Assembly (NCBI GenBank): GCA_900215285.1
Contig: OCMG01000004.1
Coordinates: 3,332,001 to 3,396,000, forward strand
Length of the DNA: 64,000 nt
Direction: 5' to 3'
From: Ensifer adhaerens
Lineage (GTDB): Bacteria; Pseudomonadota; Alphaproteobacteria; Rhizobiales; Rhizobiaceae
Position 1 is the stretch's first letter. Every line of letters starts with the position of its first letter. The notes beneath the pieces were generated by a model. The model saw only the letters and a list, made by a program, of their open reading frames with translations, did no database searches and had not been told where the DNA came from. The position numbers and the translations under genes were made by a program. Shown here one piece after another: positions 41,276 to 62,166 of the stretch.

Positions 41276-42154
41276 TCAAGTCACCAGCACCGACCCGTCA
41301 TGGGTCGTCGCGCCGCTGACGTAGCTATAGGCGAAGTCGGACCCCGGCATGTGGGGGAAGCCCCGGAAATTCAGGGCATTGGCGAACTTGGCCCTGCAGG
41401 TGGCAAACGCCTTGTCGCAGCCGGCGACGATGTGGAATGCATCTCCCGGCGCGGGACTTTCCGGCAGCGGCAGCCAGAAAGTGAGCCGCGCGGGATCTCC
41501 CGCCTGATGGCCGGCTATTTCGACGACGCGACCCGCCAGTGTCCCGTTTGAGAATGTCAGCACGCCATGACTGAACCAGCCGGCCGCAAATCCCGACAGC
41601 CCTGACACGCTCGCCTGCAGCGCATCGGCAGCAACGACGGTTCCACTTGCCCTGAAGGCCGAGAGATCGACCCCGCATAGCCCATCGCCGAGGCGCGCAT
41701 CGCAGCGTCGGCCATAGACGCGGCCGGTCGGCTGGTCGAGCCGGGCAGCCAGTCCGCGCAGTTCGGCGCGGAAGCTGTTGTCGGTCCGCGTCACCTCGCC
41801 GATCTCCCGGACATGTTCGAGCAGGACTTGCGTCGGATCGGCCCAATTCACCAGCAGTACCTCGACCCGCGCACCGTCATAGCGTCCGCGTTCCAGGTCG
41901 GCGGCCGCAATCGACTCCGAGGAAAACGCCCCGGCCACCTCGCCATTGGGCGCGGCAAGCCCCAGCGCCGTTTCGGCCTCGCTCGCCGAAAATCCACTGG
42001 CGGCAAGAAAGCGTGTTCCATCTGCCGTCAGATCGGCATCATGCTCGGTAAAGCCCAGTACGTCGCCATCACGCAGCCTCACCCGCCAGCAGCGGCAAAG
42101 CGTCGTCGCGCCGGTGTCGATATGCGCCTTCAGGGCGGCGGGAAGCATTCTCAT
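41276..42154 (-). CDS. GTA DUF2163 tail protein (gp13-like)
   Basis: A 292-residue protein with the N-terminal DUF2163 domain (TTLCRCWRVRLRDGDVLGFTEHD in part) and the C-terminal half carrying paired cysteines (GRRCDARLGDGLCGVDL and AGCDKAFATCRAKFANALNF). This is the GTA baseplate hub protein that binds an iron-sulfur cluster in the Rhodobacter particle structure; four Cys are visible here in the right region. Its ATG overlaps the DUF2460 stop by four bases. Confidence 0.93.
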   Translation of the reverse strand: MRMLPAALKAHIDTGATTLCRCWRVRLRDGDVLGFTEHDADLTADGTRFLAASGFSASEAETALGLAAPNGEVAGAFSSESIAAADLERGRYDGARVEVLLVNWADPTQVLLEHVREIGEVTRTDNSFRAELRGLAARLDQPTGRVYGRRCDARLGDGLCGVDLSAFRASGTVVAADALQASVSGLSGFAAGWFSHGVLTFSNGTLAGRVVEIAGHQAGDPARLTFWLPLPESPAPGDAFHIVAGCDKAFATCRAKFANALNFRGFPHMPGSDFAYSYVSGATTHDGSVLVT

Positions 42155-42789
42155 GGCAGAACCTCGATCAGCGGAATGGTGGGGATGCGCCCGGCATTGA
42201 AGGCGGAAAGGTCGATGTCGATCCGGCTCACCGCAAAGCGCACCGGCACGTCGAACTCGAAACCCGCCTGCACGATGGCGCCGGCCGGGGGGATATGCGA
42301 ATGATCGAAGGTGACGCGGCCGGTCACCGTATCCACCGTGAAGTCCGAAGCCGCCTGTTCAGCGCCATTGACCGCAACCCGAACGGAACCCGCCACGGGC
42401 TTGGTGATCGTGCGCACGGTCGAGGCTGCGGCATCGGCATAGGTCTTGACGAGCGGAAAGGTCGCCGTGACGCCGTCGCCCGCGCCGATCACCTGATCCG
42501 TCGCGCCGATCGCCTGCCCTGGCGGGCCTGACTGGTGATCGACGGGATCGCGAAACCGGAACCCGTAAAGTTCGCCCGACCGCGCCTCGAAGAACGCCAG
42601 AACCGCGTAGAGATCAGCCACCGAGCGGATGCCCGAGCCGGCATCGTAACTCCGCCTGGAATTGCGCCAGCGCGCATTGCGCGCCTCGCGCCCGTTGGAA
42701 AGATTGACAATATCCGTCATCCGCTCCGGTCCCCCACTGACGCCAAGCGCCAGCCGGAGCGGAAAGCGGACCTCATGGAAGGAGGTCAT
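42151..42789 (-). CDS. GTA DUF2460 distal tail protein (gp12-like)
   Basis: A 212-residue protein beginning MTSFHEVRFPLRLALGVSGG, the typical DUF2460 start, with RNARWRNSRRSYDAGSG and YGFRFRDPVDH. It is the distal tail ring protein in GTA particles. The ATG follows AGGA in a GAGGAGGAAAGGA tract that belongs to the flanking repeat arm, so the repeat supplies part of the ribosome site. It overlaps the DUF2163 gene by four bases downstream. Confidence 0.93.
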   Translation of the reverse strand: MTSFHEVRFPLRLALGVSGGPERMTDIVNLSNGREARNARWRNSRRSYDAGSGIRSVADLYAVLAFFEARSGELYGFRFRDPVDHQSGPPGQAIGATDQVIGAGDGVTATFPLVKTYADAAASTVRTITKPVAGSVRVAVNGAEQAASDFTVDTVTGRVTFDHSHIPPAGAIVQAGFEFDVPVRFAVSRIDIDLSAFNAGRIPTIPLIEVLP

Positions 42790-42802: not shown

Positions 42803-42890
42803 TCCTCCTCTCCCCTGTGGGAGAGGATAGCCTGCCCCAAGAGCCGAAGGCGATGGGCGAGGCAGGCTTGGTGAGGGGTGTATTAAAGGT
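42803..42890. repeat. Family B palindrome, copy 2, left half
   Basis: CCTCTCCCCTGTGGGAGAGG, then ATAGCCTGCCCCAAGAGCC and GGCAGGCTTGGTGAGGGGTG. This matches the left half of the element at 8404-8500. The matching right arm lies at 43246-43275, beyond the DUF559 gene. Confidence 0.8.
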
Positions 42891-42942
42891 TGCATCCCTG
42901 AAGATTCGGAAGGCAATCCCAAGTCTCGGAGAGGTCTTTTTC

Positions 42943-43383
42943 ATGCATCACCATGAGCCAGCGGAGCAGCATCGGCGATACGGACGGTCAATGCGCAAGG
43001 ATGGCACGAAGGGAGAAGCAATCCTTTGGAATCAGCTCAAAGATCGCCGCACGGGCGGTGTAAAATTTCGCCGCCAGGTTCCGCTTAAAGGTTACATACC
43101 AGACTTCATTTCCTTCGAGGCGCGGCTGATTATCGAGGTTGATGGCAGCCAGCACGCAGAGAATGTAGCGGATGGAGTTCGAGACAAGGCCTTTGCAGCA
43201 GATGGCTTCGTGACGTTGCGCTTCTGGAATGGTGAGGTCGCGCAGGCTATCCTCTCCCACAAGGGGAGAAGAGGAGGACAACTCACACGCCCCTTCTCCC
43301 CCTTGCCGTCGCGCGCGTCAGCATCGCAGAGATCTGCGCTTCCGATTTGCGGAAGCTGCCGGCGTCGGGGGTGGAGACGTTGA
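42943..43383 (+). CDS. DUF559 nuclease-like protein (Vsr-like fold) embedded in a repeat
   Basis: A 146-residue frame whose first about 100 residues are a typical DUF559 domain: ARSMR-type start (YGRSMRKDGTKGEAILW), KFRRQVPLKGYIPDF, and the PD-(D/E)xK-like core LIIEVDGSQHA, then GFVTLRFWNGEV. DUF559 resembles very-short-patch-repair endonucleases. After NGEV the normal C-terminal helix is missing and the frame runs through the repeat arm (ILSHKGRRGGQ) into the antisense end of the tape-measure gene, overlapping it by 101 bases. It may be truncated. Rightward, opposite to the GTA genes. Confidence 0.75.
   Translation: MHHHEPAEQHRRYGRSMRKDGTKGEAILWNQLKDRRTGGVKFRRQVPLKGYIPDFISFEARLIIEVDGSQHAENVADGVRDKAFAADGFVTLRFWNGEVAQAILSHKGRRGGQLTRPFSPLPSRASASQRSALPICGSCRRRGWRR
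43246..43275. repeat. Family B palindrome, copy 2, right arm
   Basis: CTATCCTCTCCCACAAGGGG then AGAAGAGGAG, the complement-type right arm corresponding to 8566-8588. Together with the half at 42803 it brackets the DUF559 gene. Confidence 0.75.
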
Positions 43384-43891
43384 AAACGATGGTCTGGCCG
43401 GTACCTCCATCCATTCCCGCCGCAACGCCGAGGCGGCCGTCGGGCCCGCGTTTCAGCGGGAGGATGGCCTCCGAGCCGGCCTCCCCCATCAGGCCGAGTC
43501 CGCCGCCCATGGGGAAGTAGGTGGGCGCGGAAACGATGCCGCCGGTGGCGAAAGGCTGGATCGCGCCGGGAACGCCGCCCTTGGCAAAGCCGAGGAGGCT
43601 GGAGAGGCTGCCGGTCAGGCTGGATGCCAGGCTGGATGTCACGCTGCCGGCGGCGCTGTTCATCAGGTTTTCCAGGGGCTTCATGCCGGCGGATAGCGCG
43701 ATGTCGGTCAGCCGGTTGGCGAGGCCTTTCAGCACATCCTCAAGGCTTTTGCCGTCGACGCTCGCGGACTTGAGCGCGGAGGAAAGCGCCGCGCCGAAGG
43801 ATTTCGAGCGGGCTTCGAGCTGTGTCATCGCCTGGTCGAGGGCGGCCGTATCAAGGCTGCCGGGTCCGCCAAGGCTTGTCGGATCAATCAT
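43283..43891 (-). CDS. GTA tail tape measure protein (gp11-like)
   Basis: A 202-residue protein, close to the short tape measure of known GTAs. Long helices (AMTQLEARSKSFGAALSSALKSA) lead to a Gly/Ser/Ala hydrophobic segment (AAGSVTSSLASSLTGSLSSLLG). The C-terminal LGLMGEAGSEAILPLKRGPDGRLG is a signature of tail tape measure proteins. It sets tail length. The first four bases overlap the upstream chaperone-like gene, and the end overlaps the antisense DUF559 frame. Confidence 0.9.
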   Translation of the reverse strand: MIDPTSLGGPGSLDTAALDQAMTQLEARSKSFGAALSSALKSASVDGKSLEDVLKGLANRLTDIALSAGMKPLENLMNSAAGSVTSSLASSLTGSLSSLLGFAKGGVPGAIQPFATGGIVSAPTYFPMGGGLGLMGEAGSEAILPLKRGPDGRLGVAAGMDGGTGQTIVFNVSTPDAGSFRKSEAQISAMLTRATARGRRGV

Positions 43892-47572: not shown

Positions 47573-47769
47573 CGAGAGGGGCGAAAGACCCCTCCCCACC
47601 CTCCCCACAAGGGGGAGGGAGACCGGGCTGCGCCGGTTTCCTGCTTCAATTCATGCCTGTGGCAGAAGCACAGATGAGATTGAAAAGGTTGCGATATGCG
47701 ATGACGGCGCAGCTATCCGTCTCCCCCCTTGTGGGGGAGATGGCGGCAGCCAGAGGGGGTCTTTGCTAC
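47573..47769. repeat. Composite palindrome, family C, copy 1
   Basis: CCCCTCCCCACCCTCCCCAC and AAGGGGGAGGGAGACC at the left and CTCCCCCCTTGTGGGGGAGATGGCGGCAGCC with AGAGGGGG at the right enclose about 80 unique bases. It is the reverse orientation of the elements at 49962 and 55921. It abuts a family A element; the two fill the gap between gp6 and the capsid gene. Confidence 0.8.
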
Positions 47770-47774
47770 GGTAG

Positions 47775-47958
47775 CCCCCTCTCTTGCGACTTCTGATGTT
47801 TAGCCTTCGGCTAAGCCATCGAAATCGCTTTCTCCCCCACCAGGGGGGAGATTGGGAGAATGCCGCGCCAGCTTGCTCCAATCTCCCCTGGGTGGGGGAG
47901 AAAGGAATTTCAGCATCTTAGCGGAACGCTAAATGCTAGAAATTCCAAGAGAGGGGGT
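47775..47958. repeat. Long inverted repeat, family A, copy 1
   Basis: About 184 bases starting CCCCCTCTCTTGC and ending in a near complement (CCAAGAGAGGGGG). Inside are a TTAGCCTTCGGCTAA hairpin, CTTTCTCCCCCACC on one side and GGTGGGGGAGAAAG on the other, and a second hairpin TTAGCGGAACGCTAA. The same plan is seen in four other copies. Confidence 0.85.
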
Positions 47959-47978
47959 ACTACCGGTGACTACACCCC

Positions 47979-49232
47979 TCACGCCGTGCCGAACTTCACC
48001 AGCTTGATCGCCTCGAAGTTCTGCACCCCGCCGCCGACGCGCTTGGTCGTGTAGAAGAGCACATAGGGCTTGGCGGAATAGGGATCGCGCAGGACACGGA
48101 CGCCCAGGCGATCGACCACGAGATAGCCGGCGCGGAAGTCGCCGATGGCGATTGCGAAGCTGTCGGCGGCGATATTCGGCATGTCTTCGGCTTCCACCAC
48201 CGGATAGCCCATGAGGCTCGCCGGCTGGCCCGGGCCGGTCGGCGGCAGCCAGAGATAGTTGCCGTTGGCGTCCTTGAAGCGGCGGATCTGGTTCTGCGTC
48301 TTGCGGTTCATCACCACCGTCGCATTCTGGCGATAGCCGGCCTTCAGCGCATAGACCGTGTCGATCAGCACATCCGAGGGGCCGGAGGAGGCGAAACCGC
48401 CCGACACACCGGTCGCCACATAGCCGAGCTTGCCCCAGCTCCAGCTCGCATCCGCGACCTTGTTTGCTGTGAGGAAGCCGGACGGCTGGGTCACGCCATC
48501 GCCATTGACGAAGGCCGCACCTTCCTGCTCGGCAAAGGCAATCTCGATTTCGGAGGACATCCAGGCTTCGATGTCCACCGCGCTGTCATCGAGCAGCGCC
48601 TGGGTGGCGGCCGGCATGGCGTAAAGCTCCATCACCGGAAAGGCGAGCTCGGCGAGCTGCGCGCTCGAGGTCTGCGGCCGCGCCGCCGTTTCACCGGCCC
48701 AGCCGGTGGCCATGCCGGAGGTCGCGAAGGGCTTCTTCAGCACGGCCGTGGAAACCTGACGCACCGTCGCCAGCGCCCGGATCGGCGAGACGACCGAGAG
48801 GCGACGACCGATCTCGGCATCCAGTTCCGGCGTGACCGTATAGCCGCCATCCGCGCCCGTGCCGATCGCCATCGCCTTGGCTTCGATGGCGCGCAGGTTC
48901 GTCTCGTCGCCGCGGCGGATATAGGCCTCGAAGGCCGCCTTGTGCTCCAGCGCGTCGGCCGCCGAAGCGCCCGGCCGGCCGAGCGGCGGGCGCGCGCCCT
49001 TCAGCGCCAGGCGATCGAGAAGCTTCTTCTGCTCGTCCATCGCCTTGTCGATGCGGCCGAGCTTTTCGACGGTCAGCGCATCGGCGACCTGCTTCTTCTC
49101 CATCTCGGCCAGCCGCCGGTCATTCGTCTCCTTGAAGGCCTCGAAGCCTTCCATGAAGGTATCGAAAGCCGCATTCACATCATCCGGCGCCGCCTTGATT
49201 TCCGGCGCGGTGGTCAGTGTCTCTTGGGTCAT
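47979..49232 (-). CDS. GTA major capsid protein (gp5-like, HK97 fold)
   Basis: A 417-residue HK97-family capsid. The N-terminal delta-domain is helical (AAFDTFMEGFEAFKETNDRR through about residue 110). The mature shell begins near MAIGTGADGGYTVTPELD, with SPIRALATVRQV and the C-terminal YVLFYTTKRVGGGVQNFEAIK. The second ATG is chosen because AGGG stands eight bases upstream of it. It assembles the GTA head after cleavage by the prohead protease just upstream. Confidence 0.95.
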   Translation of the reverse strand: MTQETLTTAPEIKAAPDDVNAAFDTFMEGFEAFKETNDRRLAEMEKKQVADALTVEKLGRIDKAMDEQKKLLDRLALKGARPPLGRPGASAADALEHKAAFEAYIRRGDETNLRAIEAKAMAIGTGADGGYTVTPELDAEIGRRLSVVSPIRALATVRQVSTAVLKKPFATSGMATGWAGETAARPQTSSAQLAELAFPVMELYAMPAATQALLDDSAVDIEAWMSSEIEIAFAEQEGAAFVNGDGVTQPSGFLTANKVADASWSWGKLGYVATGVSGGFASSGPSDVLIDTVYALKAGYRQNATVVMNRKTQNQIRRFKDANGNYLWLPPTGPGQPASLMGYPVVEAEDMPNIAADSFAIAIGDFRAGYLVVDRLGVRVLRDPYSAKPYVLFYTTKRVGGGVQNFEAIKLVKFGTA

Positions 49233-49327
49233 CAGCATTTCCCTTTTCAGGCAACAAAAAAGGGGCCGCGATAGCGACCCCTCGGGCGAAACCGGAACGC
49301 GAGTTGCGAGCCGGGCATTACGTTGTT

Positions 49328-49861
49328 TCAACCCCGCATCACCCCCGCCGCGTGCCGGAGCTTCGCAGCGAGCAGCGCGCCGCCGCTCATCTCCTTCACC
49401 TCGCTGACGCGGGCAGACGGCAGCATGGGGAAGGTGACGACGGAGATTTCCCAGAGGTCGGCTTCGAGGATGTGGCGGATGCCGGTCTTGGCGTCGCGTT
49501 TCGCCCGCACCGTGCGGAAGCCGATGGAGAGGCCGTCGAGCGCGCGGGCCTTCATCAGGCGGCGCACCTCGTCGGCTTTGGCAACGCCGGAGGCGAACTG
49601 GCCCTCGACATAGAGCCCCCGCGCATCCTCCTTCAGCGTCACCCAGCGGCCGAGCGGGCTTGCCGGATCGTGCTGGAAGAGCATGCGGATGCCGGCAATG
49701 CCGCGTTCGGACAGCGAACGCGAAAACGCCCCGCGCTCGATCACGTCCTTGCCGAGATCCGGCTCGCCGAACAGGCTCGCATAGCCGGAGAACCGGCCCT
49801 CGGCGCTCAGGCCCTTGAATTCGAGGGGCAGGAATTTGTGTTCGCAATCGGCGGTCAGCAT
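49328..49861 (-). CDS. GTA prohead protease (gp4-like)
   Basis: A 177-residue HK97-type (U35) prohead serine protease: RFSGYASLFGEPDLGKDVI, the His in MLFQHDPASPLGRW, the Ser in ALDGLSIGF, and WEISVVTFPMLPSARV. It trims the capsid N terminus during assembly. AAGGA precedes this ATG; the open frame extends upstream only into a family C repeat. Confidence 0.94.
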   Translation of the reverse strand: MLTADCEHKFLPLEFKGLSAEGRFSGYASLFGEPDLGKDVIERGAFSRSLSERGIAGIRMLFQHDPASPLGRWVTLKEDARGLYVEGQFASGVAKADEVRRLMKARALDGLSIGFRTVRAKRDAKTGIRHILEADLWEISVVTFPMLPSARVSEVKEMSGGALLAAKLRHAAGVMRG

Positions 49862-49961
49862 TGGTGGGGTTTCCTTGTTGTCTGGCGTCAGTTGACCTCC
49901 TTCACGCCGTGCTCGATCCGGGATGACGGAGGAAATTGAAGTTGTGTTGAGCCAAGTCCCC

Positions 49962-50097
49962 CTCTGGCTGCCGCCATCTCCCCCACAAGGGGGGAGACGA
50001 GAGCGGCACCCCTCTGTGGTCACTGTTGGGCGAAGCCGACGCGGCACGGTCTCCCTCCCCCTTGTGGGGAGGGTGGGGAGGGGCTTCTCTCGTTATG
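49962..50097. repeat. Composite palindrome, family C, copy 2
   Basis: CCCCTCTGGCTGCCGCCATC and TCCCCCACAAGGGGGGAGACG at the left, CGGTCTCCCTCCCCCTTGTG with GGGAGGGTGGGGAGGGGC at the right. It lies between the prohead protease and the DUF6107 gene. Confidence 0.8.
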
Positions 50098-50103
50098 ATC
50101 CCC

Positions 50104-50412
50104 TCACCGCCCCCACCGTTCCGCCACCCTCTTCAGCGCGCCCAGCGCCCACCAGGCTGTGAGGCTGACCGCGGCGGAGCCGGAGAGAACGATTTCGGGG
50201 GCCGAGAGCGTGGCAAGCAGGTCGAGCTTCTCGGCCCCGATCAGGCCGGCGGCCGGGCCGAAGACGAGGCCGGCGACAAGACCGGTAGCAAGACGCGTTG
50301 CCGCCTCCCGCCGTCCATGCGGCAGCATGTAGATGAGCGAGATCGCCACGCCGGCCACCGAGCCGGCGATGCGCGCCGCCATGATCTGGGAATCGCCGAC
50401 GATATAAGTCAT
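50104..50412 (-). CDS. DUF6107 membrane protein of the GTA cluster
   Basis: A 102-residue protein with about three hydrophobic helices (MAARIAGSVAGVAISLIYML, LATGLVAGLVFGPAAGLIG, GSAAVSLTAWWALGAL) starting MTYIVGDS. It corresponds to the DUF6107 proteins that rhizobial GTA clusters carry between portal and protease. GAGGG stands eight bases before the ATG. It could be a holin or an assembly protein; three helices in 102 residues fit a class I holin size, but this is inference. Confidence 0.75.
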   Translation of the reverse strand: MTYIVGDSQIMAARIAGSVAGVAISLIYMLPHGRREAATRLATGLVAGLVFGPAAGLIGAEKLDLLATLSAPEIVLSGSAAVSLTAWWALGALKRVAERWGR

Positions 50413-50732
50413 CGTTAAACCCTCGCTGTTAGACTGCATTCATTCCGGCTGCGCGTGACCGCATCGTTTCCCGCGCCGGCGAAGCCTTGACGTTGAGTCA
50501 GGCTGCCGGATTTTCCCGAATCATTTGAATCCCCTGGCGCGGCCTCTTCAGGTGTCGGGTTGGCCTGCAGACACCCGTTCGCACAAAACGAATCCGCCAG
50601 CTTTTACAAGCCTCTGATAAGGCTTAGAGAATTCAATATCAGACGGTCGTTTTCACGGCTTGAAACACGCCTGAGGTGCTGGACAGCGCGTCTGAAACGC
50701 GAAACAGTCCTCTGCCACACAGGAGCCCGCCC
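50413..50732. other. Divergent intergenic region
   Basis: 320 bases between the leftward DUF6107 gene and the rightward oxygenase gene, likely holding both promoters. It contains small hairpins (GGTGTC with GACACC near 50553-50579, AAGCCT with AGGCTT near 50609-50627) and an AT-richer stretch at 50600-50660. No coding frame is convincing and no long repeat is present. Confidence 0.5.
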
Positions 50733-51725
50733 TTGCCGACGACAACCTCATCCGATTTCGCCGTCTTCGATCTTGCCGCTTTCGAATCCGCCACTGGCGG
50801 GTCACGCGCCACACTCGCCCGCGAACTCGACCGCATCTGCCGCGAGACGGGGTTTCTCGCGATTTCCGGCCACGGCATCGCGCCGGAGGTCATTGCGAAC
50901 CTCAGCGCCACGGCCCGCGCCTTCTTCGATCTGCCGCCGGAGGTGAAGCATCGCGCCGCGCCGCCCTATGCGGGCTATCCGTATGGCTATCTCGGCCCAG
51001 GCGTCGAGGCGCTGGCGAAGTCCCGCGGCGTCGAGTCCCCGCCGGACCTGAAGGAGAGCTTCAACGCCGGCCCGCTTTCCACCCCGCCGGGAATGACGGA
51101 CGAGGACGCACTCTCCTTCTGCTTTGCCGACAATATCTGGCCCGATGGGCCGGAAGGTTTCCGCCCCGCCTGGGAGGCCTATTTCACGGCGATGACGGAT
51201 CTGGCCAAGCGCATCATGCGCGCCTTTGCCGAAGCTCTGGAGCTTGAGACGCATTTCTTCGATCCGTTCCTGAAGAACCCGATCAGCGCCATGCGGGCGC
51301 TGAACTATCCCCAACTCGACCGCGCGCCGCCGGAAGGGCAGCTGCGCGCCGGCGCGCATACTGACTATGGCAGCCTGACGATCCTCTTGCCCGATGCCGG
51401 CTCGCGCGGGCTCGAGATCATGACGCCGGAGGGCGCCTGGCGCGAAATCCCGCCGGTCGACGGCGCCTTCGTCATCAATATCGGCGACCTGATGGCGCGC
51501 TGGACCAACGACCGCTGGGTCTCCACCCTCCACCGCGTCGTCAACGTTTCGCCCGAACAGGGCGGCCTCAACCGCCGCCAGTCCATCGCCTTCTTCCACC
51601 AGCCGGACTGGCATGCGGAGATCGCGACGCTGCCGTCTTGTGTGGGCGCGGGCGAAGCGGGCAAGTATGAGCCGGTGCTGTCGGGGCCGCATCTAATGGG
51701 GAAATTCAAGAAGACGGTGATGTGA
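50733..51725 (+). CDS. Isopenicillin-N-synthase-like 2-oxoglutarate/Fe(II) oxygenase
   Basis: A 330-residue non-heme iron oxygenase. An N-terminal DIOX_N domain (FLAISGHGIAPEVI) is followed by the 2OG-FeII_Oxy core. The iron ligands are His and Asp in GAHTDYGSLTIL (near 208-210) and His in TLHRVVNVSP (near 267), with the cosubstrate Arg-x-Ser in RRQSIAFF. Such enzymes hydroxylate or desaturate small metabolites. The TTG start has an ideal AGGAG seven bases upstream; a GTG at 50676 would add 19 residues. It lies inside the GTA cluster on the opposite strand. Substrate unknown. Confidence 0.9.
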   Translation: MPTTTSSDFAVFDLAAFESATGGSRATLARELDRICRETGFLAISGHGIAPEVIANLSATARAFFDLPPEVKHRAAPPYAGYPYGYLGPGVEALAKSRGVESPPDLKESFNAGPLSTPPGMTDEDALSFCFADNIWPDGPEGFRPAWEAYFTAMTDLAKRIMRAFAEALELETHFFDPFLKNPISAMRALNYPQLDRAPPEGQLRAGAHTDYGSLTILLPDAGSRGLEIMTPEGAWREIPPVDGAFVINIGDLMARWTNDRWVSTLHRVVNVSPEQGGLNRRQSIAFFHQPDWHAEIATLPSCVGAGEAGKYEPVLSGPHLMGKFKKTVM

Positions 51726-51747
51726 GGGGATGGCGGTAACGGCACTA

Positions 51748-51930
51748 CCCCCTCTCTTGCGATTTCTAACGCTTAGCTGACGCTAAATGTTGAAATCGCT
51801 TTTTCCCCCACCAAGGGGGAGATTGGAGCAAGCGGCGGCGGCATCCTCCCCGTCTCCCCCCTGGTGGGGGAGAAAGCAAAATCACGGTCTTAGCCGCAGG
51901 CTAAGTCGTAGATTTTGCAAGAGAGGGGGT
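51748..51930. repeat. Long inverted repeat, family A, copy 2
   Basis: CCCCCTCTCTTGC at the left and GCAAGAGAGGGGG at the right bracket TTAGCTGACGCTAA and TTAGCCGCAGGCTAA hairpins and the CTCCCCCCTGGTGGGGGAG core. It fills the gap between the convergent oxygenase and portal genes. Confidence 0.85.
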
Positions 51931-51946
51931 CCGCGACCTCAACCGC

Positions 51947-53089
51947 TCACTCCCACCCCACCGCCTCGCGCTTCTCGGTATCACTCAAGAACCCCGCAGC
52001 CCCCACCCTCGCCCACAATTCCCCGCGCTCGGCGGAAAGCCCCGCCACCTGGTCGAGATCAAACCCCAGCTTCACCTCCGGATACACGCCCGACAGCCAG
52101 CCCGTCATCGCCTCGGCCGTGCGGAAGATGAGCGGCAGCACGGTGAGGCGCCAGAAGGCGCGGTTGGCCTCGGCATAGTTCGCATAGGTGTTGTCGCCCG
52201 GAATGCCGATCAGCATGGGCGGGACGCCGAAGGCGAGCGCGATGTCGCGGGCGGCACCGTTCTTGGCCTCGGCAAAATCCATTTCGCGCGGGCTAAGCCC
52301 CATCGATTTCCAGTCGAGACCGCCTTCAAGCAGCATGGGGCGACCGGCGCGGGCGGGGCCGGAATAGCCTTCCGCCAATTCTGCCTTGAGCCGCTCATAC
52401 TGGCTGACGGAAAGATTGCCGCCCTCCTTCGGCTGGTAGACCAGCGCGCCGGAGGGCCGGGCCGAATTGTCGAGCAGCGCCTTGTTCCAGCTGGCGGAAG
52501 CATTGGAGAGGTCGAGCGCCTTGGCCGCCGCCTCCAGCGGCGCAAAGCCCATGTGGTCGTCGAGCGGGTGGAAAAGCCTCAGGTGCAACAGGCCCGGCTC
52601 GGCCTCCACCGAGAAGCGCCGGACGGTCGAGCCGACACGATATTCATAGGCGCTCGGCCAGCCATCCGCGCCTTCGATGACGCGAATGCGGTCGGGACGG
52701 AGCAGATGCAGTTCGCGCAAGGTGCCACCCACCTCGACTGGCTCGACGAAGGCATTGCCGGAAAGCAGCAGGTGGCCGTAAAGCGCCTCCATGAACTCCG
52801 CCCCGCCCTGGCGGGCATTCGGCCGGGAAAGCAGCGCTTTCAGCGCATGGTCCGGCGCTTCCGCCCCGTCCTCGGACACGATCCACGGCACGGAGGCGGC
52901 GGCCTCGGCAATCATCCGCACGGCGCGGTAGGCAACCGGATTGCGCATGAAGCCCTCGCGGGCGAGGCTCTGGTAGGAGCGCTGCGACCAATGCGCCGGG
53001 CCGGAGGTGGCAAGCGCGAAGAGCGTGGAGAGGCCGGTCGATTTGGTCTCGGCGGGGGTGGTGCGGGGAGTGAGGAAGGGGATGCGCAT
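51947..53089 (-). CDS. GTA portal protein (gp3-like)
   Basis: A 380-residue HK97-family portal: YQSLAREGFMRNPVAYRAV near residues 38-56, PWIVSEDG, LLSGNAFVEPV, LHLLRPDRIRVI, DHMGFAPLEAAAKAL, GPPMLIGIPGDNTYANY-type segment (VPPMLIGIPGDNTY), and LGFDLDQVAGLS at the end. It forms the DNA entry ring of the head. AAGGA lies six bases before this ATG; the longer open frame upstream is repeat DNA. Confidence 0.95.
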   Translation of the reverse strand: MRIPFLTPRTTPAETKSTGLSTLFALATSGPAHWSQRSYQSLAREGFMRNPVAYRAVRMIAEAAASVPWIVSEDGAEAPDHALKALLSRPNARQGGAEFMEALYGHLLLSGNAFVEPVEVGGTLRELHLLRPDRIRVIEGADGWPSAYEYRVGSTVRRFSVEAEPGLLHLRLFHPLDDHMGFAPLEAAAKALDLSNASASWNKALLDNSARPSGALVYQPKEGGNLSVSQYERLKAELAEGYSGPARAGRPMLLEGGLDWKSMGLSPREMDFAEAKNGAARDIALAFGVPPMLIGIPGDNTYANYAEANRAFWRLTVLPLIFRTAEAMTGWLSGVYPEVKLGFDLDQVAGLSAERGELWARVGAAGFLSDTEKREAVGWE

Positions 53090-53121
53090 TGGGGTCCTTT
53101 CGGGTGGCGGGCAAGCGGCCG

Positions 53122-53203
53122 TCCTCTCCCCCTGTGGGAGAGGACGGCCTGCCCCAAGAGGCGTCAGCCGATTGTCTTGGCAGGCTTGGTGAGGGGTGAA
53201 TGG
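53122..53203. repeat. Family B palindrome, copy 3
   Basis: CCTCTCCCCCTGTGGGAGAGG with GGCCTGCCCCAAGAGGC and GGCAGGCTTGGTGAGGGGTG. This is the left half only; it runs directly into a family A element at 53211. Confidence 0.8.
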
Positions 53204-53210
53204 CGTGGCA

Positions 53211-53394
53211 CCCCCTCTCTTGCAAAATCTACGACTTAGGCTTCGCCTAAGACCGTGATTTTGCTTTCTCCCCCACCAGGGGGGAGATGAGGAGGATGCC
53301 GAAGCCGCGCGCTCCAATCTCCCCCCTTGTGGGGGAGAAAGCGATTTCAACACCTTAGCGTCAGCTAAGTGTTAGAAATCGCAAGAGAGGGGGT
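53211..53394. repeat. Long inverted repeat, family A, copy 3
   Basis: Ends CCCCCTCTCTTGC and GCAAGAGAGGGGG, with the TTAGGCTTCGCCTAA and TTAGCGTCAGCTAA hairpins and the CTTTCTCCCCCACC / GGGGGAGAAAG core. It lies between the portal and lysozyme genes. Confidence 0.85.
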
Positions 53395-53417
53395 GCGCGG
53401 ACAGGAGAAACGGTGCG

Positions 53418-54062
53418 CTACCGGGAGTCCGCCCTCAACCCCTCCCAAAACACCCGCCCATAGCCCGCCACCAGTTCCGCCTTGTCGCGGCCATTGACGA
53501 TGGCGCGGGCCTTCACCCAGTCCTCGCGGCCAGGGCGGAAATAGTCGGAAAGCTTTGCGCCGGAAAAGGCGCCGCTGACCATGCCGTTGATGAGAATTCG
53601 GGTGGCAATCGACGGGTCAAGCGCCTTGTCGGGCGCACCCTCGATGCCGAAGCAGCGATAGTTGCGCCGGCCGGTGATCTGGACGAGGCCGCGCCCGCGA
53701 AAGCGCCAGCCATCGCCACTCGCCTCGTCGCCATTGCCCATGCGGCTGGCATAGACGCGATTGGCGATGCGCTCCGGCTGGCGGGCATAGGCCTTTGCCT
53801 CGTCTGCGGAAAAGCGGTTCGGAAAGGTCGTCAGCAGCCCCCGCGCCGAATAGTTCAGGTTCTCCGTCACCGGCTGCAGGCGCGCGCCTGTCTCATGCCA
53901 GGCGGTGGCGAGGATATAGGCCTGATGGCGCAGATCGAAGAGATCGCGCCGCGCAGCGAAGGCATCGAGAAGGCGTGTGAGGCCGTCGACTTGCGCGGGC
54001 GAGAGCGCGCCGCGTGCGAGCGTGACGCGGACATGGGTGAAGAAGCCGGTGCGGTCGGTCAT
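53418..54062 (-). CDS. GH19-type lysozyme (endolysin candidate) in the GTA cluster
   Basis: A 214-residue glycoside hydrolase 19-like protein: AYILATAWHETGARLQPV holds the catalytic Glu (near residue 58), NLNYSARGLLTTFPNRF follows, then GRGLVQITGRRNY, a signature of chitinase-like phage endolysins. No signal peptide is present, so it would need a holin or act in the particle. It lies between terminase and portal, flanked on both sides by family A repeats. The ribosome site is weak. The likely role is host lysis for GTA release or peptidoglycan processing. Confidence 0.85.
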   Translation of the reverse strand: MTDRTGFFTHVRVTLARGALSPAQVDGLTRLLDAFAARRDLFDLRHQAYILATAWHETGARLQPVTENLNYSARGLLTTFPNRFSADEAKAYARQPERIANRVYASRMGNGDEASGDGWRFRGRGLVQITGRRNYRCFGIEGAPDKALDPSIATRILINGMVSGAFSGAKLSDYFRPGREDWVKARAIVNGRDKAELVAGYGRVFWEGLRADSR

Positions 54063-54141
54063 GGGGCTCTGCTTGTGATATTGATGGTGGGCTTGGCTTG
54101 CGATGCCGGGCGAGGCGCGGCATCCGTTGACGAGGAGAAGA

Positions 54142-54325
54142 CCCCCTCTCTTGCAAAATCTATGACTTAGCCTTTGGCTAAGATCATGATTTTGCTTTCT
54201 CCCCCACCAGGGGGGAGATGGGGAGAATGCCGATCCCGCAATCTCCAATCTCCCCCCTGGTGGGGGAGAAAGCGATTTCAACATCTTAGCTTCAGCTAAG
54301 TGTTAGAAATCGCAAGAGAGGGGGT
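54142..54325. repeat. Long inverted repeat, family A, copy 4
   Basis: Ends CCCCCTCTCTTGC and GCAAGAGAGGGGG, with the TTAGCCTTTGGCTAA and TTAGCTTCAGCTAA hairpins and a CTCCCCCCTGGTGGGGGAG core. It lies between the terminase and lysozyme genes. Confidence 0.85.
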
Positions 54326-54350
54326 CCGCTCAGGCACACACTTTGCCTTG

Positions 54351-55697
54351 TCACACCCCCCGCACCCGCGGCTCGCCCTGCCCCTCCAGCATCAGCGCCG
54401 TCAGCGCCCAGACCAGCGCATCGAGCCGGTCCGGCGAGCGGCCGGAGGAGAGGCCGTCGGGGCCAAAGTCGCACATCTGGTCTTCGAGGCTCGCGAAACG
54501 GCCTGCATGGGTGACGCGGCCCTGTTCGTAGAGAGCGGCCACGGGTTCGGCGCGAGCGACCTTGCCGCGGGCGGCGCGGACCGTGGTGATCGGCAGGTTC
54601 TCGTCGATACCGCGCAGCGTGGAGACGACCATATCGCCGCCCTGGTTGATTTCGGCGACGACGCGGTCCGCCTCGAAGCGGCGATAGGCGCGCGCGACCG
54701 CCAGCGCCCAGCCGGCCGGCGTTGCGGCCTCCACTGAAGCATCCGCCAGCACCACCGCCCTGCCCTTGCCATCGATGCCCGCCACCACGATACCGCAGCA
54801 GCTTGCCGCGCCATGACCGGCGGGCGGATCGACGCCGACGACAATGCGGGTAAGCGGGCCGATTTCGCCGAGAGAAGCGACCGGAATGGCATCGCGCCGC
54901 CAAAGCGCGTCCTCGCGATCCTCGATCAGCTCGCCATCGAGTTCCTGCCGTCCGAGCCGCGTGCCGCCATAGCGCGCCTCAAGGGCGGCGATGAAGCCGG
55001 GCGCCAGATTGCCGGCATTCGACAGCGTGGCGATGCGTGTCAGCGCCGTGCCTGGGTCCGCCATCAGGCGCTTGAGCAGCGGCAGCGGGCGCGGCGTCGT
55101 CGTGACCAGCTGCCGCGGATCGTCGCCGAGGCGCAGGCCGAACTGTAGCATGTCGAAGGTTTCCTCAGCGTGTTTCCATTTGGCCAGCTCGTCGCACCAG
55201 GCGGCGTGAAATTGCGGGCCGCGCAGGCTTTCGGGGTCTTCCGAGGAAAAGAGATAGGCTGTAGAGCCATTCGGCCAGACGAGCCTTCGGCGCGAGATTT
55301 CGAAGACCGGGCGCTCGCGCCCGGCAATGCGCATGATCCCGGATTGGCCGTCGATCATCACCTCGCGGGCGTCCGCAAAGGTTTCAGCCACGAGCGCAAT
55401 GCGCAGGCCTGCATTCCTTCTTGCCAACCCATGCACCCATTCCGCCCCTGCCCGCGTCTTGCCCGAGCCACGCCCGCCGATCAGAAGCCAGGTTCGCCAG
55501 TCGCCGGGCGGCGGCCGCTGTTCGGGGCGGGAAAGGATGCGCCAGTCGCGCGAGGCGGCGAGGAGTTCGGCATCGGTGAGACGATGCGGGCCGATGCGCC
55601 AGCGGGGGATGGCATGGGGACTACCCCCACCACCTTCGGCCTTTCGAGAAATCGACGCCGTCCCCTCCTCTCCGTCATGCCGGAGATGATCCGGCAT
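54351..55697 (-). CDS. GTA large terminase (gp2-like)
   Basis: A 448-residue DNA-packaging motor. The Walker A is LIGGRGSGKTRAGAEWV and the Walker B acidic pair is in FHAAWCDELAKW. Motif III is in LVTTTPRPLPLLK. The RNase H-like nuclease has VGVDPPAG, EINQGGDMV and SPDRLDALVWAL. The start is a problem: the nearest in-frame ATG (55697) lies in a palindromic repeat, and homology begins only near 55610 (IPRWRIGPHRLTDAELL). The frame stays open for another 540 bases upstream through more repeats. Confidence 0.88.
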   Translation of the reverse strand: MPDHLRHDGEEGTASISRKAEGGGGSPHAIPRWRIGPHRLTDAELLAASRDWRILSRPEQRPPPGDWRTWLLIGGRGSGKTRAGAEWVHGLARRNAGLRIALVAETFADAREVMIDGQSGIMRIAGRERPVFEISRRRLVWPNGSTAYLFSSEDPESLRGPQFHAAWCDELAKWKHAEETFDMLQFGLRLGDDPRQLVTTTPRPLPLLKRLMADPGTALTRIATLSNAGNLAPGFIAALEARYGGTRLGRQELDGELIEDREDALWRRDAIPVASLGEIGPLTRIVVGVDPPAGHGAASCCGIVVAGIDGKGRAVVLADASVEAATPAGWALAVARAYRRFEADRVVAEINQGGDMVVSTLRGIDENLPITTVRAARGKVARAEPVAALYEQGRVTHAGRFASLEDQMCDFGPDGLSSGRSPDRLDALVWALTALMLEGQGEPRVRGV

Positions 55698-55805
55698 CCA
55701 GTCAGCCCGCGCCTGCGGGCGGGAAGACTCGTTCAAGGGAGAAGAGTCCTCTCGCGCCATGTCCATGGCGCAGCTGGATCCCGGCTCAAGGCCGGGATGA
55801 CGGAG
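55674..55805. repeat. Palindromic element, family D
   Basis: CCGTCATGCCGGAGATGATCC and later GGATCCCGGCTCAAGGCCGG then GATGACGG form a typical rhizobial palindromic element with CCGTCAT / ATGACGG ends. It forms the apparent N terminus of the terminase frame. Confidence 0.7.
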
Positions 55806-55849
55806 GGGGGAGGATGGCGCGGCGATGGGAGTATCGGCGGCCGCCTCCC

Positions 55850-55905
55850 TCTTCTTCCCTTGGGGAGAAGATGTCCGAAGGACAGATGAGGGATTTTGCT
55901 CTGAA
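55850..55905. repeat. Short palindromic element, family E, copy 1
   Basis: CTTCTTCCCTTGGGGAGAAG followed by ATGTCCGAAGGACAGATGAG. Related sequences recur near 56862 and 56974. Confidence 0.5.
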
Positions 55906-55920
55906 GCAGACTCGGCGGGA

Positions 55921-56097
55921 AGACCCCCTCTGGCCTGTCGGCCATCTCCCCCACAAGGGGGGAGACGACCCGTGGCTGCCGCCTGCCCCGATGTCTGAAT
56001 ATCGGGTGCGGCATCCAGCTCCGGTCCCGCATCAAAGGAAACCGGCGCCGCACGGTCTCCCTCCCCCTTGTGGGGAGGGTGGGGAGGGGTTTTTCTC
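55921..56097. repeat. Composite palindrome, family C, copy 3
   Basis: CCCCCTCTGG and ATCTCCCCCACAAGGGGGGAG at the left and CGGTCTCCCTCCCCCTTGTG with GGGAGGGTGGGGAGGGG at the right, around about 90 other bases. It lies inside the open frame upstream of the terminase. Confidence 0.8.
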
Positions 56098-56226
56098 CCA
56101 TCCTCGATCTCCGCCGACAACGCCGCAGTATTGGTGAGCAGCTTCATCCGTGCGACCGCAATCCTGTCGATCTTTCGTTCGTGTCGAGCCAGCAGCCTGA
56201 GAAGCTGGACCAGCCGCCCCGTCGCC

Positions 56227-56778
56227 TCATCCGGGCGCATCGTCGGGAGGCCGTTCTTCCGGAGTGGAGCCATCGGCAATCCGAGACCGGGCAAGCGCCT
56301 CGGCCCGCTCGACGATATGGCGGTTGAGGTTTTCGCAGAGGCGGTCCAGCGTTTCATCGTCGACATGCCGCGCCCGGTCCGCCTCGCCCGCATCGTCGAT
56401 CTTCCTCTGCAATTCGTCGGTCTTGTCGAGCGTGCGCACGATCAGCGAAATGGCATCGGTCGCGGCCTTCAGATCGGCGCGGGCGAGCTTTTGGTCGCCA
56501 TCGGGGTCGTCCAGCAGGTCGGCCGCCTGGCGACGCAGGCGCTGGAACAGGTGCAGCTGCTCCTTCAGCTCCTCGGTCACCTCGTTCATGAGGGACCGCA
56601 GCCCCGAACCTGCAGCCAGCGCTTCCGCCGACTTGATTTCCAGCGTCAGTTCACGGGACAGATCGCGCGCCGCCCGCGCCAAGCCAGGCTCGGGAACGGA
56701 GGGCGAGCCGGCGCGACCGCAATAGCCGCCCTCGCCCCAGGCGCCATAAAGGCCGGGATCAATGTCGTCGAATGTCAT
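56227..56778 (-). CDS. First GTA gene, coiled-coil protein (small terminase candidate)
   Basis: A 183-residue, highly helical acidic protein: FDDIDPGLYGAWGEGGYCG at the start, then long heptad-like helices (LSRELTLEIKSAEALAAGSG, MNEVTEELKEQLHLFQRL, AISLIVRTLDKTDELQRKI) and a charged tail. Its position at the head of the GTA cluster, upstream of large terminase, fits gp1, identified in Rhodobacter as the small terminase subunit. I do not recognise the sequence itself. GGAG stands six bases before the ATG, and the long open frame upstream is repeat DNA. Confidence 0.65.
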   Translation of the reverse strand: MTFDDIDPGLYGAWGEGGYCGRAGSPSVPEPGLARAARDLSRELTLEIKSAEALAAGSGLRSLMNEVTEELKEQLHLFQRLRRQAADLLDDPDGDQKLARADLKAATDAISLIVRTLDKTDELQRKIDDAGEADRARHVDDETLDRLCENLNRHIVERAEALARSRIADGSTPEERPPDDAPG

Positions 56779-56861
56779 GATGGTCTCCAGCCGAAAGGAG
56801 CCGAGAATGGTGTCCCGGAGCAGCCGGGACAATGAGGGAAATGCGCGACTTGTCTCGCGCC

Positions 56862-56990
56862 CCTTCTCCTCTTGGGGAGACGTCCCGAATGCAGTGCGGG
56901 GATGCGGGATTCTCATCTTGGTCAGCGGTAAAAGGAACCTCTCATCCAGCCCCTCTGGCCACCATGTTCCCAAGGGGAGAAGAGAGTGAG
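56862..56990. repeat. Palindromic elements, family E, copy 2
   Basis: CCCCTTCTCCTCTTGGGGAG then ACGTCCCGAATGCAGTGCGG at the left and TGTTCCCAAGGGGAGAAGAG at the right, an imperfect inverted repeat about 130 bases long just upstream of the first GTA gene. Confidence 0.6.
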
Positions 56991-57004
56991 AGTGAGAGTG
57001 AGAA
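56983..57004. repeat. Short tandem repeat (GAGAGT)n
   Basis: About three and a half units of GAGAGT in tandem, in front of the GTA cluster. Such hexamers can vary in number by slippage. Confidence 0.7.
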
Positions 57005-57104
57005 CAGCACCCGCGTCCGCAAACCCTTCCCATGGAACCGCTCCGGGGCAAGCGGGTCACGATAACAAAATAACGCGGCCCCTGACCCGTCACTCGAAAA
57101 CGCC

Positions 57105-57157
57105 GACGGGCGGCCGGATCAAGGAATAAATTCCTGAGTGATCCGGAGCCGCCCGTC
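57105..57157. other. 53-base hairpin, possible terminator or small-RNA end
   Basis: Outer arms GACGGGCGGC and GCCGCCCGTC (10 bp), middle arms CGGATC and GATCCG, inner arms AGGAAT and ATTCCT: 22 paired bases in one stem with small bulges. Read leftward it is followed by GGCGTTTTCG, a weak T tract, so it may end a leftward transcript from the gene at 57389. Confidence 0.6.
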
Positions 57158-57388
57158 ATCTCTTGCGCGTTCAACCCGCATGACCCACGCTGCAGCTTTC
57201 ATCAGAAAGCCAGCGATTCTAGGCCCGGGACGGGAAATCGGGGTTTCCCTCTAGCGCAGCCACAATTCTGTGACTGTGCCTTGTTTGTACCAAACGACCG
57301 TCACGCCGTCAAGGCTTATTTTCCTATTTTTGTCGATTTCGGCTAACCGTCTCTCGGAAAAGCGGAATTTCTCACGCCCTGTCCGCTC

Positions 57389-57751
57389 TCAGACGGTGGT
57401 GATGCCTTGTGCGGCCGAGAACTGCTCGAAGGCGGCGACGGCATCCGCGGCATACATGAGCGACGGGCCGCCGCCGAGATAGACGGTCATGCCGAGCACT
57501 TCGTTGAACTCCTCGAAGGTGCAACCGAGCTTCACCAGCGCCTCGACGTGATAGCCGATGCAGCCATCGCAGCGGGTGGCGATTGCGATGGCCACCGCAA
57601 TCATTTCCTTGGTTTTCGCCGAGAGCGCCCCATCCTTGCTGGCCTCTCGCGCCAATTGCGAGAAGCCGGCCATGGTGTCGGGGATGGTCTTGCGGATCTT
57701 GCGGGAATTCAAGGAAATGCCCTTGATGATCTCGGGATAGTTCTTGGTCAT
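57389..57751 (-). CDS. Carboxymuconolactone decarboxylase family protein (AhpD-like)
   Basis: A 120-residue CMD-family protein with the redox motif CDGCIGYHVEAL (Cys-x2-Cys and His three residues after the second Cys, near 57-63). This is the peroxidase-reductase active site of AhpD-type proteins. It lacks a signal peptide. The second of two close ATGs is chosen because GGAG is eight bases upstream. A perfect inverted repeat overlaps the presumed promoter just upstream. The inferred role is thiol-dependent oxidative stress defence; the electron donor is unknown. Confidence 0.9.
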   Translation of the reverse strand: MTKNYPEIIKGISLNSRKIRKTIPDTMAGFSQLAREASKDGALSAKTKEMIAVAIAIATRCDGCIGYHVEALVKLGCTFEEFNEVLGMTVYLGGGPSLMYAADAVAAFEQFSAAQGITTV

Positions 57752-57772
57752 GGTCATGTCTCCTGTGATGCA

Positions 57773-57796
57773 ATAGATATAATATTTCATATCTAT
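57773..57796. promoter_or_regulatory. Palindromic operator candidate of the CMD-family gene
   Basis: Perfect eight-base arms ATAGATAT and ATATCTAT eight bases apart, beginning 22 bases before the start codon. On the leftward strand the site contains TATTAT, a good -10 candidate, so a repressor bound here would block transcription directly. Confidence 0.6.
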
Positions 57797-57865
57797 CATC
57801 GCAAGAGCCGTTGCGCCTTGCTTTATGTCAAGAGCGCGGCCGGATGACGCAATCGGGCGGGCGGA

Positions 57866-58321
57866 TCACCCTTCCCGGTTGATCGGCCAGTCGACGAGAT
57901 AGTCCTCGTAATCGTCGATATCGATGCCGTCTTCGCTGATCGTCTGGCCGCGCACGGAAATGCCGGCCTCGTGCACCGTGTCGGGATTGCCGGAGACGAG
58001 CGGGTGCCACCATTTCAGGTCTTCGCCGTCGCGGACGAGGCGATAGGCGCAGGTGGGCGGCAGCCAGGTGATCTCGTTGACGGATTGCACCGTCAGGCGA
58101 ATGCAGTCCGGCACCGTCTTCTGGCGATTCTCGTAATCCTTGCAACGGCATGTGTCGCCGTCGAGCAGCGTGCAGCGGATCGAGGTCCAGGCGATTTCGC
58201 CCGTGTCCCAGTCCTCCAGCTTGTTGAGACAACAGAGGCCACAGCCGTCGCACAGGCTCTCCCATTCGGTGTCCGACATTTCAAGAAGCGTCTTCTCTTT
58301 CCAGAAGGGGACTGCGGTCAT
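57866..58321 (-). CDS. YcgN-family cysteine-cluster protein (UPF0260)
   Basis: A 151-residue protein of the CxxCxxCC-type zinc/iron-chelating family: [15 protein letters not shown] near residue 23-37, then [16 protein letters not shown] and VPDCIRLT, seven or more ordered cysteines. It begins [20 protein letters not shown], as YcgN proteins do. Metal or Fe-S binding is likely; biochemical role unknown. It is divergent from the PBP1A gene. Confidence 0.93.
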
Positions 58322-58435
58322 GATATCGCCTGCATTCTTTTCTTGTGATTTTCGTTCAAATCAACCAAATCTGGCTCTATACGACAGGTGTCCCGAAAGG
58401 GGACGTTCCTGCGACCCAACCCAAGCGCTGCCGCC

Positions 58436-60610: not shown

Positions 60611-60733
60611 CGCGAGGCCGGACGATCTTCCTCGGCGTGAGGGTCCGGTCCCGCTTGGATACGAAGAGACAGAGCAATTCGAGCGCAAGCCGCCACCGGT
60701 CTTGCGCCCGGAATCGCCTCAAAACAATGGCAT

Positions 60734-60773
60734 AGAGCATTTCAGGTGACCGATATGTCTTCCGAAATGCTCT
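60734..60773. repeat. Inverted repeat between PBP1A and the DUF1214 gene
   Basis: Perfect ten-base arms AGAGCATTTC and GAAATGCTCT with a 20-base spacer. Arms of this AGAGCA-TTC kind are common in dispersed rhizobial elements; it could also be a regulatory stem just upstream of the DUF1214 start. Confidence 0.55.
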
Positions 60774-60799
60774 GGAACGAGAGAGAAGCAAGCCAGTAC

Positions 60800-61919: not shown

Positions 61920-61935
61920 GGGATACGCCGAGGCA

Positions 61936-62121
61936 CCCCCCTCTCCTGCGATTTCTAACACTTAGCTAAGGCTAAGATGTTGAAATCGCTTTCTCCCCCA
62001 CCCAAGGGGAGATTGGAGCAAGCGGACGCGGCATGCTCCCCATCTCCCCCCTTGGTGGGGGAGAAAGCAAAATCACGGTCTTAGCCGCAGGCTAAGTCGT
62101 AGATTTTGCAAGAGAGGGGGT
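61936..62121. repeat. Long inverted repeat, family A, copy 5
   Basis: CCCCCCTCTCCTGC at the left, GCAAGAGAGGGGG at the right, with TTAGCTAAGGCTAA and TTAGCCGCAGGCTAA hairpins and the CTCCCCCCTTGGTGGGGGAG core. It lies between the convergent DUF1254 gene and the small leftward gene, outside the GTA cluster. Confidence 0.85.
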
Positions 62122-62166
62122 CGGCCACCGAAGCCGCCGCAATCTGTTATTCCAACGTTTAAGAAC

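Follow-up and report, generated by a model that had tools for sequence, protein, structure and literature searches.

A 64,000-nucleotide stretch of the Ensifer adhaerens genome (assembly GCA_900215285.1, contig OCMG01000004.1, positions 3,332,001 to 3,396,000; hereafter the window, meaning this whole stretch) carries a DUF559 nuclease gene between the two inverted halves, or arms, of a dispersed palindrome. We lean towards the view that DUF559 nucleases and the BoxC/PIT triplex palindromes form one system, similar in design to that of the REP-associated tyrosine transposases (RAYTs) and their REPINs, the hairpin-forming doublets of repetitive extragenic palindromic (REP) sequences. A full element would consist of an arm, the DUF559 gene and an inverted arm, and paired or single arms that lack the gene would be its non-autonomous relatives. 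The nuclease is a small PD-(D/E)XK enzyme closely akin to Vsr and to the EDxHD homing endonuclease I-Bth0305I; it would nick or cut extruded hairpin or triplex arms, or intergenic sites, and repair of the break would then copy the element or an arm pair into a new junction. We infer, in short, that the arms are recognised by the nuclease and copied through its action.

The association between gene and arms was measured in 120 genomes of the window's order, 54 of which contain a match to PF04480. The best 80 of the 109 matches listed, ranked by E-value, were used, and two at contig ends were left out, giving 78 usable loci. For each, an inverted-arm score was defined as the best local alignment of the left 250 nt with the reverse complement of the right 250 nt; the score limit of 18, like the box patterns and the regular expressions for class-1 and class-2 hairpins used below, was chosen after the data had been seen. 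Scores of at least 18 are reached by 55 of the 78 DUF559 loci, window copy included, as against 27 of 11,872 sliding control positions, and scores of at least 30 by 34 loci as against 7 positions. With genes as controls, 2 of 475 open reading frames (ORFs) of the same loci are framed, one of the two being a GIY-YIG gene by its coordinates, and PIN-domain genes from the top 30 loci of the same draw are framed in 0 of 28 cases (two at contig ends dropped). The expectation in the preliminary description that such arms would flank DUF559 genes elsewhere more often than by chance is strongly supported. The 78 loci are not independent, because some genomes contribute several; counted by genome, 31 of 40 hold at least one framed copy. 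A class-1 hairpin lies within 250 nt, on at least one side, at 75 of the 78 loci and at 67 of 73 loci from the named GTDB genomes described below, compared with 42 of the 475 ORFs, 0 of 28 PIN genes and 0 of 24 GIY-YIG genes, and hairpin density is 4.1 per kb within 250 nt of DUF559 and 0.01-0.25 per kb farther out. By regular expression, 49 of the 55 framed loci are class 1, five are unclassed and one (L054) is class 2; all six of the latter read as class 1 by eye.

Such figures might be expected if the arms simply marked permissive intergenic spots, or served as terminators or processing sites, so that any accessory gene would look alike. In some genomes the junction between pheS and pheT does carry other inserts, and within the window's genus three different palindromic inserts are found at one junction. 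Nonetheless, we regard this explanation as very improbable, given how seldom the control ORFs and PIN genes are framed and given the behaviour of a second nuclease family. GIY-YIG genes from the top 30 loci of the same order draw are framed in 10 of 24 usable cases (six dropped; controls 6 of 744), and the palindromes that frame these standalone genes are of another class (CGTCATnCCGG..., CCTGAGG..., for example TCGTCATTCCGGCGAAAGCCGGAATCCAG): by regular expression, none of the 10 is class 1, seven are class 2 and three are unclassed. The match between nuclease family and palindrome class speaks against a general effect of permissive sites. It suggests that GIY-YIG nucleases with their different palindrome are a parallel system, and that such a route may have arisen more than once. 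Example framed GIY-YIG loci, within L285-L314, are L286, L296, L298, L301 and L314.

The arms themselves have a recurrent anatomy. A hairpin was found in 103 of the 110 flanks of the 55 framed loci, with stems mainly of the CCTCTCC, CCTTCTCC or CCTCCCC type, and the order runs from stem through short loop to purine strand, often a second, variable hairpin, and then a purine-rich box. The box changes with the stem: it is GGTGAGG in 14 of the 16 boxes found with the first stem type, GGATGAGG in 10 of 11 with the second, and GGGAGGGG, GGGTGGGG or similar in 41 of 42 with the third (four being GGGAGAGGG), while no box was recognised in 32 flanks. Among 48 asymmetric hairpins (of 63 recognised, in 27 loci), the box fits the mirror of the purine strand better in 29 and the direct copy in 2, with 17 ties; after removal of repeats per genome, the counts are 21, 1 and 13. 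A mirrored third strand, with A or T at A positions, is the rule for an intrastrand triplex. As far as their letters go, the arms obey this mirror rule, with the predicted purine-rich third strand mirroring the purine strand of the hairpin.

The pyrimidine-purine hairpin of the CCCTCTCCC..GGGAGAGGG type, as in the BoxC/PIT/triplex motif, is present in the arms. In PMC4666352, the E. coli repeats, formerly known as BoxC and PIT, have the same arm layout, nearly the same sequence and inverted pairs; they differ in that many of the arms described here have a further hairpin lying between the purine strand and the box. That text reports triplex formation by an oligonucleotide of the E. coli motif, tabulates 23 motifs for E. 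coli K-12 MG1655, and describes the repeats as abundant, tied to genomic instability and flanking genes without a common function; it contains none of the words endonuclease, DUF and Vsr.

Evidence that the whole unit moves comes from a genome (G066) with two DUF559 elements (L055 and L066) that are 93.6% identical over 499 nt and lie in differing surroundings. Their similarity stops at, or a few bases from, the outer tips of both arms. A 1.7-kb query from this genome gave 125 matches within it, and among those listed nearly all fall at arms, many of them closely spaced left-right pairs; where one of the elements sits, the sister genome has just a single arm without the gene. Several genomes hold several DUF559 copies (8 in G058), some of them broken by stops. 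Whole-element duplication and dispersed arms are, on this comparative evidence, mobile-element traits, and the unit would home or move by the action of its nuclease. At L055 and L089, the flanks just outside the hairpins are inverted copies of each other (GCATAACC/GGTTATGC and AGATCAACC/GGTTGATCT, respectively) and differ between elements.

Two other readings keep the nuclease and give it a different role. In one, free-standing homing-type endonuclease genes insert as passengers into the spacers of arm pairs, or into fragile sites that the arms create, and the arms spread by other means, such as replication slippage or other enzymes. We consider this unlikely, if worth keeping in mind: in the recent L055/L066 duplicate the arms moved along with the gene, and arm type agrees in part with the nuclease tree (37 of 52 overall, a value reached in 0 of 1000 permutations). 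In the other, a very-short-patch (VSP) type or structure-specific nuclease handles mismatches or breaks at hairpin or triplex repeats and is selected to stay near its substrate, with no mobility involved. Such a repair role strikes us as less plausible still, since it is hard to see why an enzyme that works in trans should lie between inverted arms, and multiple copies per genome, stop-broken copies and duplication of the whole element are traits of mobile elements.

The elements we assign to one DUF559-palindrome system also recur at particular sites. In different families they adjoin the same genes, namely pheS, glyS, cysS, a metH lacking its N-terminal part, and pdhC. Among 30 pheS-pheT junctions, five measure 10-16 nt and four carry DUF559 and measure 565-658 nt, two of these four (genomes G009 and G086; loci L078 and L063) missing the two-sided score; the remainder differ in length or insert, or lack a recognised pheT start. 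Different inserts occupy this junction in several genomes of the order (L255-L284), including a GIY-YIG gene in G056 (L282). A FastTree tree scattered DUF559 copies that have similar neighbourhoods in several families. Independent insertion at shared operon sites is not claimed from this tree, as approximately unbiased (AU) tests did not reject a single origin per site (p 0.20, 0.23, 0.63, 0.24 and 0.05).

The window element, a 470-base insert of arm, DUF559 frame and outer inverted arm between a DUF2460 gene and the following gene, is listed with the other features in the table below. The framing of the gene by inverted arms, as first described, holds: the frame matches PF04480 with an E-value of 1.7e-28 (99.1 bits; cut-off 20.6), the right outer arm is 94% identical to the left arm on the opposite strand over 34 nt, and the locus (L107) has an inverted-arm score of 21.5, compared with a maximum of 12.5 at 159 control positions in the same 12 kb. 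The frame retains the active-site residues E25, D54, E65, D67, H71 and D77. Its nearest relatives are 118-119 residues long and end in ...EQSLDLVVRKILMALDKPI; one, from Rhizobium aquaticum, is annotated as a very-short-patch-repair endonuclease (80% identity over 71% of the query). In the window copy, the final ~17 residues are lost and replaced by read-through of the arm and by antisense sequence of a gene transfer agent (GTA), so that the C-terminus is not intact. This copy is best read as a relic, a decayed member of its family. At 8404-8592, where the preliminary description had the same two halves enclosing about 100 non-coding bases, the arm pair without a gene stands, and the spacing does not: the right arm is complete, with an inner hairpin unlike that of the left arm, and the spacer is just 32 nt.

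Features of the element and related repeats in the window (coordinates are window positions)
Feature	Position	Strand	Remarks
Left arm (family B)	42803-42890	+	Paired with inverted right arm around the DUF559 frame
Left-arm hairpin 1	42806-42827	+	TCCTCTCCC-CTGT-GGGAGAGGA, then variable inner hairpin
Left-arm third-strand box, GGTGAGGGG	42870-42878	+	Mirror score 9, direct score 7 for the window arm
DUF559 nuclease frame, decayed	42943-43383	+	ATG at 42943 by reading; hidden Markov model (HMM) match 42970-43248
Right arm, outer part only, containing CCTCTCCCACAAGGGGAGAAGAGG	43242-43275	-	Inner part gone along with the DUF559 3' end
DUF2460 gene (GTA g12-like)	42151-42789	-	ATG picked by reading; listed ORF begins 42840
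Gene at GTA g11 position	43283-43891	-	Ends 8 nt from right arm
Paired arms without gene, REPIN-like	8404-8592	.	Left arm ends at 8475; spacer of 32 nt (8476-8507); right arm spans 8508-8587
Further family-B arm	53122-53202	+	63% identical to 8404 copy, 85% to window arm
Cluster of related-family arms and arm pairs	47576-62137	.	Near 47.6-48.0, 50.0, 51.8, 53.2, 54.2, 56.0 and 62.0 kb

The surrounding genes are those of a GTA-type cluster, with a GTA_TIM/tail protein, an NlpC/P60 protein, a baseplate-hub protein and DUF2460 on one side and tail-tube proteins on the other; the DUF559 frame is antisense to them. The g12 and g11 labels follow the GTA numbering, the g11 name being assumed from gene order, and the gene at the g11 position had no Pfam match. 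Within the 64-kb window, 18 hairpins were counted, most of them in the cluster at 47576-62137, compared with 1 in a 400-kb sample of the same contig (twenty 20-kb pieces), and hairpins are also more numerous around the other DUF559 copies of this genome. Local hopping, as an account of this clustering, is noted here and not adopted; the genome has 54 copies of one pattern, and L001-type arms also lie far off.

The same junctions in relatives hold the arms with and without the gene. At the GTA junction, five other genomes of the genus (G342-G346) were compared: G343 has no element, G345 has decayed outer hairpins only, G344 and G346 have the left arm with a different repeat where the gene would be, and G342 has that different repeat and no arms. 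In G346 (L192) and G344 (L194), the sequence at the DUF559 position, beside the class-1 left arm, is a class-2 type palindrome (CCGTCATACCGGGCTTGACC...). Junctions free of the element exist, in G343 here and also between pheS and pheT. The earlier suggestion that the palindrome occurs both with and without the nuclease is supported, since relatives carry arms without the gene.

The window genome has three DUF559 genes. The second, uninterrupted, lies between a propionyl-CoA carboxylase-domain gene and methylmalonyl-CoA mutase, where G342 and G344 have the same element, G345 and G346 have an arm pair of another family without a gene, and an unrelated palindrome, as a pair, takes the place in G343. 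All of these inserts sit shortly past the stop codon of the upstream gene, and because they are of three kinds, this junction has been hit more than once. In the window genome (L038:6592 onward; C4 near 539.7 kb), the mutase frame apparently starts just before the triplex arm (starts by reading), so that an in-frame N-terminal stretch of the mutase (MAKNPSLSAAPTSLPQGERV...), absent from G345 and G346, would come from the arm.

The link between nuclease and hairpin extends to whole genomes. A hairpin pattern, CTCTCCC-N(1-10)-GGGAGAG, was counted in the 120 genomes, with a strong DUF559 gene taken as a match of at least 70 bits. At least three hairpin copies are present in 35 of 43 genomes with strong DUF559 and in 13 of the 77 others, a group that includes 11 genomes with weaker DUF559 matches; the medians per Mb are 2.5 and 0. 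Family means differ as well (24 families with DUF559 and 24 without; p 6e-7), and in families with both kinds of genome the DUF559 genomes are higher in 11 of 15.

The arms are also not confined to rhizobia, and in this respect the original description was too narrow: they flank DUF559 in several groups of Proteobacteria and on a Deinococcus plasmid, and on one side they adjoin E. coli ycjD. In a draw from the class, 14 of 24 usable DUF559 loci are framed (5 of 29 dropped; controls 0 of 744), as are 5 of nine loci from outside the class (controls 5 of 279) and 4 of seven further loci. In a set of named GTDB genomes, which includes Mesorhizobium, Rhizobium, Phenylobacterium, Caulobacter, Sphingopyxis, Pseudoxanthomonas and Thiobacillus, 46 of 73 loci reach 18, compared with 8 of 3,437 control positions; the 73 are 80 loci minus six at edges and minus L360, which scored high solely through a run of N. 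Two DUF559 loci stand out by their high inverted-flank scores, L376 (Legionella anisa; 125) and L346 (Mesorhizobium muleiense; 113.5), the Legionella flanks having no class-1 hairpin. Of 40 listed matches (44 records) in a plasmid collection, 10 were examined, picked by organism and so non-random, and among them only Deinococcus (44.5) and S. meliloti (104) have a high two-sided score. By eye, the motif lies on the right side only in E. coli (two strains), Klebsiella and Lelliottia, on the left only in Shinella, on both sides in direct orientation in N. gonorrhoeae, and weakly on both sides in two Synechocystis plasmids.

In E. coli K-12 W3110, the DUF559 gene is ycjD, between sapF and fabI. 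Its stop codon falls within a decayed triplex-type hairpin (CCCTCTCCCTGA...), and an intact triplex motif starts 168 nt past the last base of that codon. This motif is identical in sequence to nos. 9, 16, 19 and 22 of the E. coli table in PMC4666352. No inverted arm was found on the left side of ycjD in this strain. By map position (about 29 min), the motif beside ycjD is presumably no. 9. At L437:1961-2330, between ycjD and fabI, the triplex motif is preceded by a partial second ycjD 3' end (GGAGACGGTGCTGGAGAATATTC), which gives the look of a rearranged element. Of 5,426 E. coli genomes, 3,365 have a match to ycjD. Clean empty sites were looked for in E. coli; the three ycjD-less strains examined carry an efflux operon after sapF and so do not count as simple empty sites. 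When a Serratia DUF559 gene served as query for a distant DNA search, E. coli gave no match; ycjD came to light through matches in the plasmid collection. PF04480 had no match in an E. coli control genome, which a strain without ycjD would explain.

Several observations weigh against a single DUF559-palindrome system. Within the order, 23 of the 78 DUF559 loci fail the two-sided criterion, and two other E. coli loci miss it as well (9.5 and 9.0). Seven genomes without a DUF559 match hold at least 5 of the counted hairpins, two with weak matches only hold 94 and 72, and eight with strong DUF559 hold fewer than 3. Across families, arm type follows the nuclease tree weakly (27 of 52, reached in 38 of 1000 permutations). 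Strand transfer is not known for PD-(D/E)XK nucleases. Caulobacter VsrA, a DUF559 protein, is treated as a mismatch-repair enzyme in PMC12907096.

The proposed system shares features with several known ones. A structure comparison against the PDB matches DUF559 to I-Bth0305I and Vsr, with a PD-(D/E)XK fold, an EDxHD-type active site and a homologous catalytic domain, and a relative, P0002, matches PF04480 with 120.4 bits. Fold and active-site layout are common to the three; what sets DUF559 apart is a gene usually framed by dispersed palindromes. It is in this framing that the system resembles RAYT/REPIN, where, in PMC2817692, one small DNA-cutting enzyme gene lies between inverted palindromes that are also dispersed and paired in the genome. 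The enzyme differs, being a PD-(D/E)XK nuclease by the Pfam and PDB comparisons and not a tyrosine transposase related to IS200/IS605, and because it fails this test of enzyme class the DUF559 system is not a RAYT. The palindromes differ too, being of triplex type with a mirrored box and without the GT(A/G)G head of REPs, and RAYTs are described as always framed by inverted palindromes (PMC2817692), compared with the 55 of 78 found here. The RIME (Rhizobium-specific intergenic mosaic element) and other intergenic mosaic elements of rhizobia are likewise palindromic intergenic repeats, a likeness of description. PADLOC models gave no match for P0002 or YcjD, and a missing match does not exclude a part in anti-phage defence. 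No link between DUF559 and triplex repeats was found in the openly licensed literature, searched by titles and the starts of abstracts without the name ycjD as a query.

Taken together, a wider proposition comes into view, one we hold tentatively and would place a little short of probable: that the BoxC/PIT/triplex repeats of many bacteria, E. coli and rhizobia among them, have their missing enzymes in the DUF559 proteins. Repeats and nucleases would then make up a transposase-free class of mobile elements, in which a small nuclease of homing type recognises hairpin or triplex ends and break repair copies arm pairs around the genome, with a parallel GIY-YIG class beside it. The repeats lack a clear function according to PMC4666352, and Pfam still names DUF559 a protein of unknown function, so that the link merges two questions into one and makes the DUF559 nuclease a leading suspect for spreading or maintaining triplex repeats. 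E. coli K-12 has both ycjD and the listed motifs, one of them apparently adjoining ycjD, and the question can therefore be put to the test there. If it is true that the nuclease spreads the repeats, it would provide a transposase-free route to bacterial repeat families.
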